From Deltaproteobacteria bacterium (GTDB lineage: Bacteria > Myxococcota_A > Polyangia > JAAYKL01), in assembly GCA_028713995.1 (NCBI GenBank), contig JAQTNF010000026.1:1-45134 (forward strand): DNA of 45,134 bases, given 5' to 3'. Shown piece after piece: positions 3,617 through 15,694 of the stretch (position 1 is the stretch's first letter; the number at the start of each line of letters is the position of its first letter). A model generated the notes under the pieces. The model had not been told where the DNA came from and made no database searches. It saw only the letters and a list, made by a program, of their open reading frames with translations. The translations under genes and the position numbers were made by a program.

Positions 3617-4861
3617 ATGAAACACCTCGCCGACGTCGACCCCGAGATCGCGTCCCTCATCCAGCAGGAGAACGTCCGCCAGCACGAGAAGCTGCGGCTC
3701 ATCCCGTCGGAGAACTATGCCTCTGCGGCCGTGCTCGAGGCCACGGGCTCGGTGCTGACGAACAAGTACTCGGAAGGCTACGCGAACAAACGCTACTACG
3801 AGGGCCAGCAGATCGTGGACCAGGTGGAGACCCTGGCCATCCAACGCGCCAAGGCCCTGTTCGGCTCGGAGTCGGCAAACGTGCAGCCCTACTCCGGCTC
3901 GCCGGCCAACCTGGCCGTGTACTACGCCTTCTGCCGGCCGGGCGACCCGATCATGGGCCTCGCGCTCGACCACGGCGGCCACCTGACCCACGGCTGGGGC
4001 GTCTCGATCACGGGCGACTTCTTCACGCCCATCCGATACCAGCTCCACCCGGAGACGCACCTCATCGACTACGACATGATGCGCGATCTCGCCCGCAAGC
4101 ACAGGCCCAAGCTCATCATGGCCGGCGCCACGGCCTACCCGCGCATCATCGACTTCCAGGCCTTCGCGGACGTGGCCAAGGAGGTGGACGCCGTGTTCTG
4201 CGTGGACATGGCGCACATCGCGGGCCTCGTGGCGGGCGGCGCGCACCCCTCGCCCGTGCCCATGGCGCACGTGGTGACGACGACCACGCACAAGACCCTG
4301 CGCGGTCCGCGCGGCGGCATGATCCTCATGAAGAAGTCGCACGCCAAGGCCGTCAACAAGGCCGTGTTCCCGGGGCTCCAGGGCGGGCCGCACAACCACA
4401 CCACCGCCGCCATCGCGGTCGCGCTCAAGGAGGCCTCCACCGACGACTTCAAGGCCTACGCCCGCAAGATCGTGGAGAACGCCAAGCACCTGGCCGAGTG
4501 CCTCAAGGCCAAGGGCTTCCACCTGGTCTCGGGCGGCACGGACAACCACCTCATCCTGGTCGACGTGTCGAAGCGCGGCGTGACCGGCAAGCCGTACGCC
4601 AAGGCCATGGACCGGGCCGGGCTCGTGGCCAACTACAACACGGTGCCCTTTGATCCGCGGCCGCCGATGGATCCGAGCGGCATCCGCATGGGCACGCCCG
4701 GCGCCACCACGCGCGGCATGGGCAAGCCCGAGATGGAGAAGCTCGCCTCGTGGATGGATCGCGTGCTCGCCAACGTGGAGAACGAGGACGCGCTCGAGAA
4801 GATCCGCCTCGAGGTCAAGGAGCTGTGCGCCGCCTTCCCCGCCCCCGGCGTCGTGGTCTGA
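3617..4861 (+). CDS. glyA: Serine hydroxymethyltransferase
   Basis: Cytosolic PLP enzyme that interconverts serine plus tetrahydrofolate with glycine plus 5,10-methylene-tetrahydrofolate, feeding one-carbon metabolism. The 414-residue length is normal for the family. Visible landmarks are RLIPSENYAS (30-36 region), the YSEGYANKRYYEG substrate loop (51-63), the HG.HLTHG motif (119-125), the FCVDMAHIAGLV strand with the PLP-contacting Asp-X-Ala-His, and the PLP lysine Lys226 in TTTTHKTLRGPRGG. An AAGGAGG ribosome site precedes the ATG. The stop codon directly abuts an antisense transposase remnant, so the gene's natural downstream sequence has probably been replaced. Confidence 0.98.
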   Translation: MKHLADVDPEIASLIQQENVRQHEKLRLIPSENYASAAVLEATGSVLTNKYSEGYANKRYYEGQQIVDQVETLAIQRAKALFGSESANVQPYSGSPANLAVYYAFCRPGDPIMGLALDHGGHLTHGWGVSITGDFFTPIRYQLHPETHLIDYDMMRDLARKHRPKLIMAGATAYPRIIDFQAFADVAKEVDAVFCVDMAHIAGLVAGGAHPSPVPMAHVVTTTTHKTLRGPRGGMILMKKSHAKAVNKAVFPGLQGGPHNHTTAAIAVALKEASTDDFKAYARKIVENAKHLAECLKAKGFHLVSGGTDNHLILVDVSKRGVTGKPYAKAMDRAGLVANYNTVPFDPRPPMDPSGIRMGTPGATTRGMGKPEMEKLASWMDRVLANVENEDALEKIRLEVKELCAAFPAPGVVV

Positions 4862-4866
4862 CACTT

Positions 4867-5031
4867 CCTTCTGCTGCCGTCGGAGAGCAATGACAGCCTG
4901 CCCTGCGCGATTGGAGGCCGAAGCAGGTATCTCAGCATGCGCTCCAATCGCGCCCGGTCGTTGGCGTGGATCTGCGCCCCGGCGTACACGTCGAACCCAT
5001 GCACGTTCGCATGGTGCCCGTTGCGCTCGAA
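4867..5031 (-). pseudogene. IS91-type (Y2) transposase remnant
   Basis: A minus-strand frame of about 55 residues reads FERNGHHANVHGFDVYAG, then HANDRARLERMLRYLLRPP, then IAQGRLSLLSDG. This matches the conserved C-terminal part of IS91/IS801-type transposases (the Y2_Tnp family), in which a His/Gly-Phe strand is followed by DR..LERL.RY.LRPP.A..RL....DG. Both ends are lost: the frame runs into hairpin DNA upstream and, at the other side, into the reverse of the glyA 3' end only three bases after its stop. The catalytic Tyr region and the rest of the element are missing, so it is a dead scar. The family call rests on pattern recognition only. Confidence 0.7.
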
Positions 5032-5045
5032 CGCAGGCTCTCCAT

Positions 5046-5158
5046 GCCCGGACGTGAACGTCCGGGCTGAGCCGACGAAGCCCCTGCGGGGCTGCCCCGC
5101 CTGGAGGGCGTTCCCAACGCCCTTCGTTTTCTCAGCCCGGCGGTTGACCGCCGGGCTC
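5046..5158. repeat. Cluster of four strong hairpins, REP/BIME-like
   Basis: Four inverted repeats follow each other: 5046-5067 (10-bp stem GCCCGGACGT, 2-base loop), 5079-5093 (6-bp AGCCCC stem), 5105-5123 (8-bp AGGGCGTT stem, CCC loop, then TCGTTTT) and 5134-5157 (11-bp AGCCCGGCGGT stem). In addition GGCTGAG at 5065-5071 can pair with CTCAGCC at 5131-5137, which would enclose the middle two. It lies between the transposase remnant and ndk. Such multi-stem units are typical of mobile intergenic repeats. The third stem plus T-run might also stop glyA transcription. Confidence 0.6.
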
Positions 5159-5370
5159 GATGCGGGACGCGGCTGCCCGGCGACCACGCGAGCTCGGCAT
5201 TGGCCGGTCTTCCCATGGCCGGGCGCGGGACACGAACCGTGCCACGCGCGGGAAGGCCGGATTTCCTGAGTCAAACGACAATCGATATGGCGGAGGGACT
5301 CGGCGAGAGGCGGCGGGCGGCGTCCCAGCCGGCGGGCCCGCAATCCGATCCGGACCGAAGCCAGGCCTGT
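5159..5370. other. Intergenic DNA without recognised feature
   Basis: Between the hairpin cluster and the ndk stop. The open frames here are Arg/Pro/Gly-rich with no protein-like pattern on either strand. No promoter or RNA was recognised. Confidence 0.5.
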
Positions 5371-5778
5371 CTACAGCTCCGGAAAGAAGAAGGCGATCTC
5401 GCGCGCGGCGCTCGTCGCGCCGTCCGAGCCGTGCACCGCGTTCTCGGTCATGTTGCGCGCGTAAAGGGCGCGCAGGGTGCCGGGCGCGGCCTTGGAGGGA
5501 TCGGTGGCGCCCATGATGGCACGGTTGCGCTCCACGGCGTCCGCGCCCTCGAGGACCTGCACGCAGATCGGGCCGGATGTCATGAACGCCACGAGGCCGT
5601 CGAAAAAGGGCTTCCCTCGGTGCTCCGCGTAGAACGCCTCGGCCTCACGCCGCGAAAGCCGCGTCATCCTGAGCGCCGCGATCGTGAGCCCCTCTTCCTC
5701 GAACCGGCCGAGGATGGCGCCGACCTTTCGCGCCGCGACCGCGTTCGGCTTGATGATGGACAAGGTGCGCTCGGTCAT
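5371..5778 (-). CDS. ndk: Nucleoside diphosphate kinase
   Basis: A 135-residue enzyme that transfers the gamma phosphate from ATP to other nucleoside diphosphates through a phospho-histidine. It begins with the typical [12 protein letters not shown] strand, and the active-site His116 lies in NAVHGSDG near the C-terminus, ending EIAFFFPEL. Length and motif placement are standard. The ATG overlaps the stop of the upstream secreted-protein gene by four bases (ATGA), so the two are probably translationally coupled. Confidence 0.98.
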
Positions 5779-9395: not shown

Positions 9396-10421
9396 ATGAA
9401 AAAGGCAGACCTCGACTGGGCAAACATCCCGTTCGGCTACATGAGGACCGACTACAACCTGCGCTACACGTGGCGCAACGGATCGTGGAGCGAGGGCGTG
9501 CTCACGTCGGACGAGAACATTCCCATGCACATGGCCGCCACGTGCCTGCACTACGGCCAGGAGGCGTTCGAGGGCTTGAAGGTCTTCGAGACCAAGGCGG
9601 GCGATGTGGTGGTGTTCCGGGTGGAGGAAAACGCCAAGCGCCTCGCGAGGTCGTCTTCCAAGATCCTCATGGAACCTGTGCCCGAGGACCTGTTCATCGA
9701 GGCGGTCTTCAAGGTCGTGAACGCCAACCGCAGGTTCGTGCCGCCCTACGGCACGGGCGCCAGCCTCTATGTGCGGCCGCTCGTCATCGGGACCGCGGCG
9801 CAGGTGGGTGTGAAGCCCGCGGGCGAGTACATGTTCATCACGTTCGTCACCCCGGTGGGGCCCTACTTCAAGACCGGCTTCAAGCCCGTGAACCTCATCG
9901 TGGAGGAGGAGGTCGACCGGGCGGCGCCTCTGGGCGTGGGCGACATCAAGGTGGGCGGCAACTACGCCGCGGGCTTGAGGGCGAGCACGCGCGCCAAGGA
10001 GAACGGCTACACCGAGGTGCTGTACCTGGATGCCAAGGAGAAGCGCTACATCGACGAGTCCGGTCCGGCCAACTTCTTCGGGGTGACGAAGAGCGGGCAG
10101 TACCTCACGCCCAAGAGCGACTCGATCCTGCCCTCCATCACGAACAAGTCGCTCGTCACGCTGGCCGAGGAGTTGGGCATGAAGCCCGAGCGAAGGCCCA
10201 TCGACGTGGAGGAGATCTTCGACTTCGCCGAGGCCGGCTGCTGCGGCACCGCGGCGGTCATCACGCCGGTCGGGTCGATCACCTTCCGCGACCGCAAGGT
10301 CGTCTACGCGAAGGACGGCAAACCGGGCCGCCACTGCACGGAGCTCTACCAAAAGCTGACGGCGATCCAGGTAGGCGACGCGCCGGACAAGCACGGCTGG
10401 GTGCGCCGCGTCCCGGGCTGA
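9396..10421 (+). CDS. ilvE: Branched-chain amino acid aminotransferase
   Basis: 341-residue fold-type IV PLP aminotransferase for the last step of valine, leucine and isoleucine synthesis (or the first of their breakdown). It is of the longer BCAT form shared with eukaryotes and many bacteria. Marks include HYGQEAFEGLKVF (52-64), the Arg in SLYVRPLVIGT, the PLP-binding Lys185 in DIKVGGNYAAGL, LDESGPANFF-type sequence as DESGPANFFGV, and the glycine loop CCGTAAVITPVGS. A strong AAAGGAGGG ribosome site precedes the ATG. It has its own promoter and no other leucine or valine genes nearby. Confidence 0.95.
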   Translation: MKKADLDWANIPFGYMRTDYNLRYTWRNGSWSEGVLTSDENIPMHMAATCLHYGQEAFEGLKVFETKAGDVVVFRVEENAKRLARSSSKILMEPVPEDLFIEAVFKVVNANRRFVPPYGTGASLYVRPLVIGTAAQVGVKPAGEYMFITFVTPVGPYFKTGFKPVNLIVEEEVDRAAPLGVGDIKVGGNYAAGLRASTRAKENGYTEVLYLDAKEKRYIDESGPANFFGVTKSGQYLTPKSDSILPSITNKSLVTLAEELGMKPERRPIDVEEIFDFAEAGCCGTAAVITPVGSITFRDRKVVYAKDGKPGRHCTELYQKLTAIQVGDAPDKHGWVRRVPG

Positions 10422-12962: not shown

Positions 12963-14276
12963 TCACCCGCCGGAACGCAGGACGAAGAACACGATGAATG
13001 CGGCGGCGACGATGTACGTGGCGGGCCGAAGCTCTCGGTGGCGGCGCGCGGCGAGGTGAGTCACGACCCACAGGACGAAGCCCATGCCGAGCCCGTTCGA
13101 GATGTTGAACGTGGCGGGCATGGCCAGGATCGTGACGAGCGCGGGGATGGCCACGGCCGGATCCTTCCAGCGGATGGCGGAGGCGCCCTCGAACATCATG
13201 GCGCCCACGACCACGAGCGCCGGCGAGGTGGCGATGGCCGGCACGGCCGCGATGAGGGGCAGGAGGGGCAGCGTGAGCAGGAACAGGGCCGCGGTGACGA
13301 GCGCCGTGAGCCCGGTGCGTCCGTCCACCACCACCCCGGACGCGCTCTCGATGTAGGTGGTTGCCGTGCTCGTGCCGAACACCGCGCCGATGATGCTGCC
13401 CGTGGCGTCGGCCGCGAACGCGCTCGAGATGCGCGGCATGCGACCGTCCTCGCCGATGCACCCCACGGTGTAGCCGAGCGCGAGGAGCGTGCCCATGGTG
13501 TCGAAGAGGGCCAGGAACAGGAACGTGAACACCACGACCGCCATGTCCGGGCGCAGCAGCTCCTTGAGGCCGAAGAACGCGGCGCCCATGGTCTCGCGCG
13601 GCCACGAGGGCAGCGCCACGATCGCCTCCGGGCGTGGCGAGATGCCCGCCGCCATCGCGGCGATCGCCGTGGCCACGATGCCGACGAGGACGCCGCCCGG
13701 AACCCGCGCGGCCGCGAGCCCCGCGGTGAGCGCGAGCCCGCCGAGAGCGACCAGGGTGGACGGCGCGGACAGGTCGCCGAGGGTGACGAGCGTGGCCGGG
13801 CTCTTCACCACGATGCCGGCGTTCTCGAGGCCGATGAAGGCGATGAACAGGCCGATGCCGGCCGCGATGGCGCGCACCAGGTCCTTCGGCACGGCGGCCA
13901 CGAACTTCTCGCGCAGGCCCATGATCGACAGGACGAGGAACACGACGCCCGCCACGAGCACCGCGGCGAGCGCCGCCTTCCACGACACTCCCATCTGGCC
14001 GCACACGGTGTAGGCGAAGAACGCGTTCAGCCCCATCCCGGGCGCGAGCGCGAACGGGTACCTCGCCCACAGTGCCATGACGACCGTGGCCGCGGCCGAG
14101 GCCAGGCACGTGGCGAAGAACGTCTCGTCCTTGGGCATGCCGGCCGCGGCCAGGATGGCCGGGTTCACGACCACGATGTAGGCCATGGTCAGGAAGGTGG
14201 TGATCCCGGCCAGGATCTCCACGCGGATCTTGACCCCGGCGTCGTCGCCGAGCAGCGGCTGAGCCCCGTCGCTCAC
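12963..14276 (-). CDS. NCS2-family purine permease (AzgA/guanine-hypoxanthine type)
   Basis: 437 residues with about 12-14 membrane segments. The start [20 protein letters not shown] and [15 protein letters not shown] are hallmarks of the AzgA-like branch of the NCS2 nucleobase transporters, as are [12 protein letters not shown] and [15 protein letters not shown] in the second half. Probably imports hypoxanthine, guanine or adenine with protons. It starts with a GTG whose last bases overlap the stop of the upstream gene (GTGA), with GGGAGGGG as ribosome site. A reading frame continues upstream for kilobases but is the reverse of other genes. Confidence 0.93.
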
Positions 14277-15694
14277 GGCGCCCCTCCCGCGGTGAGGAGG
14301 CGCGCGAAGGCGGACCCGACCGAGTCGGCCAGGTGCGTCAGGCGGTTCCAGGGCGGCAGGTCGTCGTCGAGGCCGTCGGCGTAAAGGAGCCCGGCCACGC
14401 GGTCGCGGATGATCACGGGCACGACGAGCGCCCGCGCGGGGCGGCCGCCGAGGGCCGCGGCGAAGACGCCGTCGGCCGGAGTCTGGGCGAGAGGTCCGAG
14501 CCGGATCTGGCGGCTGCGCACCACCTCTTGCAGCGTACAGGGCGACGAGATCGGCACCCAGAACGACTTGATCGCCTCGCGGCTCGTCATGGACCCAGCG
14601 ACGTCGAAGCCGCGGATCTCGGTCTTCTTGACCGCGAGAAAGATGGCCCTTCGGGCGAAGCGCAGCATGTAGCCGAGCGCGAGCCCGACCACGTCCCCGC
14701 GGCTCTTGGCCATGTCGATCGAGGCGATGATCTCGCCCTCGCTCTTCCCGATCTTCCCGGAAGCACGCTCCGCCCGCGGCGGCGGCTCGCTTCTTGGGGC
14801 CTTCGCGCGCGGCCCGGCCGGCTCGTCGTTGAGGGACGCCCACGACTCTTCGGGCGGGGGCGGGCTCTCCCACGAGTCCGATACCGGGCGGCGAACGGGT
14901 TCGGCCGGAGGCGATACGTCGCCTACGCGGCGCCTGCCGCCCCTGCGGCCGTCCACAAGCACGGGCGGCCGCACGTCCACCCTCCCGCGCGCCCCGGCGA
15001 CGGCCTCGGGGATGTCTTCCCGGTGTGACTTGGGCGCGGCGCGGGTCACGAGAGGGATGGCCTCCTCTCGGATCGCCTCGAGCGGTCGCGTGCTGCGCGA
15101 CCTTCGGCCCAAAGCGGGCGCGTCGGTCGGGGCGGGCGCAGGCGGTCTGTATCCCGGACCCGCGAGCTCGCGCCCCCGCATGAGCGGCAGCGGCGCGAGC
15201 GAGGGGTGCTTGGCGGGCGGCGGCGACGACGGTGGCCGGGAGGATCTCTTCTCGAACGGCCCGGGCGGCCTGATGCCGTAGTGCTTCTCGAGCGCGAACG
15301 TCATATCGGTCTCGGAAACCACCGCCGCGACGATGGTGCACCCGGAGTAGTAGGCGGCCTCGTCGAGGGCGTGGCTGCGGCTCGGATCCGTGATGCCCAG
15401 GGTGAGGGTCTTGCCCGCGAGCGCGAGCGGAATCACGCGCAATTCGCCGGCCAGCTCCGGCGACAGGAGCTCGACCACGTCGCGCGGCAGGGACGCGAGC
15501 CGCGATCTGGGCCAGTAGGCGCACGGGAAGTGATTCACCATGAACTTGGCGAGTTCGTCGGCGCCGATGGCGCCACCCGCCACGAGGTGGTACGTGAGCG
15601 TCTCGCCGTGACGCGCCTCGAGCGTCACCGCCCGCTCGTACTGCTCGCGGGTGATGCGTCCCTCGCCGAGGAGCATGCGCACGGCCTGGCTCAT
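14273..15694 (-). CDS. MshEN (GspE N-terminal) domain protein with GAF-like C-terminus
   Basis: 473 residues, soluble. Residues about 1-150 match the MshEN / type II secretion ATPase N-terminal domain (MLLGEGRITREQYERAVTL, LAKFMVNHFPCAYWP, LALAGKTLTLGITDPS), a fold known in some proteins to bind cyclic di-GMP. Residues 150-310 are a Pro/Arg/Ser-rich disordered linker. Residues about 320-470 look like a GAF-type sensor domain (CTLQEVVRSRQIRLGPLAQTP, RALVVPVIIRDRVAGLLYADG). No ATPase domain is present, so this is a regulator or adaptor rather than a secretion motor. GGAAGGAG precedes the chosen ATG; an earlier ATG at 15736 is less likely. Confidence 0.82.
   Translation of the reverse strand: MSQAVRMLLGEGRITREQYERAVTLEARHGETLTYHLVAGGAIGADELAKFMVNHFPCAYWPRSRLASLPRDVVELLSPELAGELRVIPLALAGKTLTLGITDPSRSHALDEAAYYSGCTIVAAVVSETDMTFALEKHYGIRPPGPFEKRSSRPPSSPPPAKHPSLAPLPLMRGRELAGPGYRPPAPAPTDAPALGRRSRSTRPLEAIREEAIPLVTRAAPKSHREDIPEAVAGARGRVDVRPPVLVDGRRGGRRRVGDVSPPAEPVRRPVSDSWESPPPPEESWASLNDEPAGPRAKAPRSEPPPRAERASGKIGKSEGEIIASIDMAKSRGDVVGLALGYMLRFARRAIFLAVKKTEIRGFDVAGSMTSREAIKSFWVPISSPCTLQEVVRSRQIRLGPLAQTPADGVFAAALGGRPARALVVPVIIRDRVAGLLYADGLDDDLPPWNRLTHLADSVGSAFARLLTAGGAP

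Follow-up and report, generated by a model that had tools for sequence, protein, structure and literature searches.

An intergenic element at positions 5046-5156 of the window (the whole 45,134-nucleotide stretch of DNA analyzed here) is, with a probability that we put at roughly 85%, a non-autonomous mobile repeat in which the end modules of a small IS200-like (Y1, HUH) transposon are joined without the transposase gene. It is a REP/REPIN-type repeat in variant form, a variant of the REPIN/TIRtron kind and not a new kind. We base this assignment on dispersed copies in the genome, a Y1 gene framed by such copies, a parallel case in Chloroflexota, and relatives in which the flanking gene pair lacks the element. 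The initial annotation had compared this stretch to REP/BIME or miniature-element units that spread through genomes, a view supported by the 13 places at which we find it.

Anatomy and folding of the element

The element consists of a left and a right module that abut without a gene between them (Table 1); the sense of left and right was set by the orientation of the transposase gene on contig C122. From inside to outside, each module comprises an inner hairpin, a linker of the CTTCG or CTTTG type, a tag (TCAG or TGAG), and an outer hairpin, with TCAG or TGAG (TSAG) on most modules of this genome. Read with G5135, the right linker carries the tag TCAG at the outer hairpin's 5' foot, where classical REPs have GTAG, and the left linker has equivalents in the Chloroflexota copies described below. 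The junction between the modules would be the slot for the transposase gene in a complete element. Across the 45-kb window, the tagged outer hairpin is confined to this element, with 3 matches at up to two mismatches against 0.06 expected. The element is nearly symmetrical between strands, and a covariance model matches most full copies on both.

Table 1. Coordinates of the element, the surrounding relic, the C122 transposase gene, and the repeat copies
Feature	Position	Strand	Remarks
IS91/ISCR-like transposase relic, 3' part of gene	4875..5040	-	87% identity to the intact gene at G000:C13 over 166 bases
Left outer hairpin	5046..5067	+	10-bp stem, loop GA; one covarying pair; copy alignments
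Left linker TGAGCCGACGA	5068..5078	+	TGA, complementing the tag (faces TCA of the right linker), plus ACGA; pairing with 5124-5134 possible
Left inner hairpin	5079..5093	+	AGCCCC TGC GGGGCT, 6 bp
Inter-module junction	5094..5104	+	length and sequence vary among copies (alignment)
Right inner hairpin	5105..5123	+	AGGGCGTT CCC AACGCCCT, 8 bp; three covarying pairs
Right linker TCGTTTTCTCA	5124..5134	+	pairing with left linker possible
Right outer hairpin	5135..5156	+	10-bp stem, loop TG; two covarying pairs
Other side of relic, gene start and upstream	5172..5362	-	74% identity to C13 over 191 bases
Y1 transposase gene	C122:9700-10125		141 aa; PF01797, 1.8e-17
Repeat copies at C122	9473-9580, 9637, 10129-10236, 10283-10390		full, half, full, full
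Near-complete copies	C26 (the window), C122 (three), C1, C6, C118, C138, C17		end hairpin of C17 damaged
Half copies	C122:9637, C53, C92, C33		covariance model

The four successive stems recorded in the initial annotation are all present. The region 5030-5175 (146 nt) folds at -87.9 kcal/mol, compared with -66.0 +/- 4.0 for 200 dinucleotide shuffles, none of which was as good (z -5.55). The long-range link GGCTGAG/CTCAGCC, also part of that annotation, stood in part: the two motifs lie at 5065-5071 and 5131-5137, but their GGC and GCC portions are also used by the outer hairpins. The long-range stem free to form consists of TGA/TCA (5068-5070 with 5132-5134) and ACGA/TCGT (5075-5078 with 5124-5127). 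This linker stem is absent from the predicted minimum-energy fold of 5030-5175, which shows the four hairpins.

Comparison of nine copies shows that the stems are maintained through compensating changes. Standard pairs occupy 92.2% of the cells in the drawn structure versus 86.9% after column shuffling (0 of 500 shuffles as high), and shifting one side by 1-3 columns lowers them to 33-45%. Double-sided changes occur in 19 cells versus 7.7 +/- 2.1 in shuffles (again 0 of 500 as high). By two further counts the structure does not rise above shuffles: the number of pairs with a double change (7, matched by 92 of 500) and the number of further pair types (15, matched by 448 of 500). The left inner hairpin was omitted from these counts because its alignment was too poor to draw. 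In the long-range stem, 88.9% of cells pair and one pair covaries (C-G to G-C); it is the weaker part of the structure.

Dispersed copies and the insertion site

As the initial annotation had proposed, we searched for intergenic copies by BLAST. Querying the genome of origin (5.0 Mb, 218 contigs) with positions 4870-5240 returned 16 matches, 12 over part of the element (the window included) and four over the neighboring relic only. A covariance model built from eight copies, which match it by construction, detected the repeat at 13 distinct places, of which nine hold near-complete copies and four hold halves, and a pattern for the half module matched 14 times versus 0 for its reversed control. 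The three full copies on C122 are 92-99% identical, and all other pairs among the nine near-complete copies share 63-81% identity; since most copies have diverged to this extent, the repeat system may be nearly inactive. Inspection of copy borders by eye revealed no common target sequence or target duplication.

Under stricter filters, which may lose weak matches, the model found the element in none of 58 relatives and in none of the other 281 genomes sampled from the phylum. A plasmid collection held no match to 5040-5165, and none of 15 pattern matches in viral contigs with transposase was confirmed. These results differ from a single copy conserved only downstream of glyA in relatives, the pattern that the initial annotation had said would point to a terminator or RNA element.

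The element lies between a gene at 3617..4861 (+), which we take from its sequence to be glyA (serine hydroxymethyltransferase), and a convergent gene at 5371..5778 (-), presumably ndk (nucleoside diphosphate kinase, likewise named from sequence). Two relatives from other genera of the same family, G007 and G005, retain glyA adjoining ndk on one contig without the element. Their glyA and ndk matches are spaced by 82 and 81 bp, respectively, whereas the corresponding spacings in the window are 552 and 574 bp. Both genes match on one contig in G009, more than 1 kb apart, and on separate contigs in G001, G002, G003, G010, and G012; the five remaining relatives yielded one match or none. On the mobile-repeat reading, the unusually structured gap between the two genes is insertion debris.

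We weighed the possibility that the element was kept at this site because it acts in the transcript, terminating transcription or stabilizing mRNA 3' ends between glyA and ndk, with its spread being secondary. Such a role would suit the strong stems of the 5030-5175 fold and the terminator-like site that the right inner hairpin makes with its flanking pairs (5102-5126, glyA strand, +), followed by TTTT at 5127-5130 (1 found versus 0.3 expected in shuffles). The placement of the copies is also suggestive: convergent long frames are the nearest neighbors at 7 of the 10 loci that carry copies (window, C6, C122, C1, C118, C138, and C92), a raw count, uncorrected for genome background, that uses open frames rather than annotated genes and in which C17, C53, and C33 are unassignable. 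Similar placement is described for REPs, most of which are said to fall between genes that are unidirectional or convergent (PMC3733652). Yet the element is absent from the roughly 80-bp gap of both relatives that keep the gene pair on one contig, the 281 other sampled genomes lack a match to the model, the ndk strand has no terminator-like site that we could find, and the copies cluster around a transposase gene at C122. Four stems and a tag also exceed what a terminator requires. The initial annotation had made this last point, which holds, except that a terminator-like site does lie within the structure. We therefore consider maintenance for an RNA-level role unlikely, and we rejected an intrinsic terminator as the main reading because the element is multi-copy, absent at the orthologous site, and frames a transposase gene. 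RNA-level activity and a mobile repeat are compatible and not exclusive; judging from sequence, a terminator effect between convergent genes is likely a side effect and not the reason the element exists.

The transposase scar that the initial annotation placed next to the repeat proved real, in that the segments on both sides of the element (Table 1) align with an IS91/ISCR-like element of which the genome keeps an intact copy at another site. Relative to that copy, the relic lacks about 855 bp between its two parts, and the repeat sits at this gap. With the relic forming its two sides, the repeat could be regarded as a piece of the IS91/ISCR-like element or as a passenger moved by it. However, the repeat is missing from the relic's relatives at C13 and C82, and the relic part of the BLAST query, which covered only part of the IS91-like element, matched only these two contigs and not those of the other copies. 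We give this origin almost no weight and rejected the IS91-type scar as the source of the element, given its absence from C13 and C82 and its copies elsewhere.

The intact gene, at G000:C13:31528-33060 (L056:1529-3061), encodes a 510-aa IS91/ISCR-like Y2 transposase. Its product matches PF04986 and PF14319, and among NCBIfam models it matches ISCR clade Ia (best) and IS91 below their cut-offs, clade Ia far below. On contig C82, a 141-bp direct repeat (14255-14394 and 15548-15688; L057) with 98% identity lies near an IS91-like relic.

A candidate transposase and its counterparts

Among 12 matches to PF01797 (Y1_Tnp) in the genome, one (C122:9709-10047) falls within an array of the repeat. The array runs full copy, half copy, transposase gene, full copy, full copy, and the left module that constitutes the half copy ends 13 bp upstream of the transposase start codon. 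With a half element upstream versus a full element downstream, the array allows more than one placing of the borders of a complete transposon. The encoded protein scores 52.0 bits against the IS200-like model NF033573 (55 needed) versus 23.1 bits against the TnpA_REP model NF047646 (80 needed). Nine solved sequences match it at E<=1, eight of them named transposases, one being that of ISHp608.

The protein contains the motifs DHAH, WQ (WQAEYG), and YVREQEQHH, the last of which fits the signature Y---Q--HH. Table 1 of PMC6006769 gives this signature, together with WQ and a median length of 148 aa, for TnpA_Y1 subclass 1.2. On these motifs, the C122 gene carries the signature of subclass 1.2. 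It departs from the class 1 HUH motif described there, DH[IV]H with valine or isoleucine at the hydrophobic position, in having alanine at that position. PMC6006769 places the subclass mostly in Cyanobacteria and Bacteroidetes; its passages on the subclass report no REP and describe IS200-type end structures as generally absent, whereas repeats frame the gene at C122. Framed by the repeats in this way, the C122 transposase is likely the partner enzyme of the window element.

Two more IS200-like Y1 genes, at G000:C11:58832-59176 and G000:C187:2649-2990 (L053 and L054), belong to one family and have long inverted ends with several hairpins and the tyrosine motif YIRGQWRQH. Repeats of other kinds occur at these loci: three tandem 39-bp repeats beside the C11 gene (L053:1109-1225) and, at L054:1962-2258 and 2594-2794, blocks of short-period (12/18-nt) repeats, each following a copy of a 92-nt leader (86% identical).

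We envisage that the element moved by transposition as follows. When single-stranded DNA becomes available, as on the lagging-strand template or during repair, the outer hairpins would fold and be recognized by the C122 transposase, with the tag TCAG/TGAG at the hairpin foot read as a guide. The enzyme would then nick the strand and move or copy it elsewhere, mostly just after genes, and pairing of the linkers may hold both element ends together. The ends-only form would have arisen when the gene was lost from within a complete element; alternatively, two free modules may have come together as a pair. The element offers a candidate substrate for a class of small transposases reported without partner repeats, and short oligonucleotides would suffice to test it in vitro.

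A protein scan of genome contigs identified three relatives of the C122 transposase. At locus L102, in an Ardenticatenales MAG (Chloroflexota), the transposase is 40% identical to that of C122, and its gene is flanked by inverted two-hairpin ends on the same plan as the window modules, with the tag GTAG. The end module occurs at 17 places in that genome, two of which are the gene's own ends. Ten of these places form five inverted pairs 5-13 bp apart, and inspection of loci revealed two further pairs, at C586 and C433; the pairs on C1056 and C637 have flanks in common and could represent a single copy. Gene-plus-ends and ends-only forms therefore coexist in this Chloroflexota genome too. Inverted two-hairpin ends are also present at L104, and a shuffle-tested flank comparison found no significant inverted flanks at L103.

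More broadly, among 31 transposase loci, 25 showed an inverted match between their flanks that exceeded all 200 mononucleotide shuffles (L045, L046, L047, L049-L051, L075, L082, L089, L091, L092, and L096 were left out). This shuffle is a weak control, the ends differ in kind, and the match at C122 is an artefact of its self-complementary copies. GTAG occurs at the ends of L073, L080, and L087. The motif Y---Q--H is present at 31 of 38 transposase loci, two genes being counted twice.

Acido-Lenti-1 and the relation to known systems

Might the element instead be a structured non-coding RNA of the Rfam Acido-Lenti-1 (RF01687) or ncS037 type? It scores 22.4 bits for the former (cut-off 37) and 29.2 bits for the latter (cut-off 112), and the copy on C17 reaches 22.1 bits for Acido-Lenti-1. 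All of these scores are far under cut-off, the genome of origin has 0 Acido-Lenti-1 hits at E<=0.01 among the matches listed, and the near symmetry between strands also argues against an RNA. Over-cut-off Acido-Lenti-1 matches in other genomes (G113 and G059) are themselves dispersed, inverted-paired repeats, and at one locus (G001:C192) Acido-Lenti-1 matches lie on both sides of a Y1 transposase gene. A structured RNA of either type is accordingly very improbable here. We rejected Acido-Lenti-1 as a family name for the window element on its score, and we take the sub-threshold Rfam matches to HIV-1_DIS, MIR2629, suhB, and the like to be hairpin look-alikes.

Acido-Lenti-1 resembles the window element in having a hairpin, a tag-like foot, and a second hairpin, and differs in that the element falls short of its cut-off. 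Searching 282 genomes of the phylum for RF01687 gave matches in at least 28, over cut-off in at least 11, with many copies in some. In G113 and G059, over-cut-off matches stand in inverted pairs 53-105 bp apart on a window-like plan, which in G113 reads outer hairpin, CTGAATTGTG, inner hairpin, spacer, inner hairpin, CACAATTCAG, outer hairpin. An inverted partner scoring beyond 300 shuffles was found in 10 of 20 regions, three of them partial, the regions having been chosen partly for listed pairs and not as a survey. The Y1 gene at G001:C192, whose product has the motif YIGRQEEHH, is bracketed by two mutually inverted matches of 37.8 and 27.2 bits; the hairpin order relative to the gene looks reversed. 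Four of the genomes over the cut-off (at least 11) lack a PF01797 match, and among 19 PF01797 places in the other seven, a scan that left out L143 (the same gene as L099), only G001:C192 has Acido-Lenti-1 on both sides of the gene. One match in G113 (C267) lies about 1.4 kb from a partial Y1 gene. The Chloroflexota pairs give no Acido-Lenti-1 score at E<=1. In G059, which has no PF01797 match, many equal-scoring Acido-Lenti-1 matches are spread over many contigs, several at contig ends, a pattern suggestive of a recent burst of ends-only elements, with their transposase absent from the assembly.

RF01687 appears in PMC2864571 as a probable RNA of Acidobacteria and Lentisphaerae. A 2026 study (PMC13298647) suggests possible regulation by Acido-Lenti-1 downstream of Tannerella protease genes and describes no sign that these genes are carried by mobile elements, and passages from three papers naming Acido-Lenti-1 make no link to a transposase. 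We raise tentatively, at somewhat less than even odds, the broader proposal that transposases with the subclass 1.2 signature own REP-like tagged two-hairpin modules, in at least two phyla and with ends-only pairs, and that Acido-Lenti-1 is such a module. If so, annotated Acido-Lenti-1 "ncRNA" copies, those at protease genes included, would be mobile DNA. The proposal offers an alternative reading of an orphan Rfam family filed as sRNA, and the inference drawn in PMC13298647 would change if the Tannerella copies were transposon ends.

Among known systems, the window repeat is close to REPINs and BIMEs, in which REPs tagged with GTAG form inverted pairs and are accompanied by a RAYT/TnpA_REP gene (PMC3116915, PMC3733652). 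Like these, it is a non-coding inverted pair of tagged hairpins, intergenic and dispersed, that frames a Y1 HUH gene, the cognate gene at C122 being flanked by the same repeats. It differs in four respects. Each half carries an extra inner hairpin. The tag at the 5' hairpin foot is TCAG/TGAG and not GTAG (GT[AG]G), which is found in the Chloroflexota copies. The 13 places are fewer than in classical REP families, which usually exceed 100 copies (PMC2817692). Finally, the C122 transposase is IS200-like rather than TnpA_REP-like, with YVREQEQHH in place of the class 2 Y---NP.

TIRtrons, with their TIRYT transposases, similarly have a Y1 gene framed by inverted repeats, some with two palindromes; PMC3733652 describes a portion of such repeats as dispersed too, with many of them in dimers or clusters, and a repeat family for Koribacter ORF1552. 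This likeness was drawn by description and not letter by letter. TIRYT examples fall mostly in subclass 2.1 (20 of 26; PMC6006769), in contrast to the subclass 1.2 signature of the C122 gene. IS200/IS605 elements with subclass 1.1 TnpA share the single small HUH tnpA, hairpins near both ends, and a tyrosine with glutamine four residues on; the elements described here are set apart by two hairpins per end, inverted symmetry, an outer hairpin with a REP-like tag at its foot, and, at C122, the tyrosine motif Y---Q--HH.
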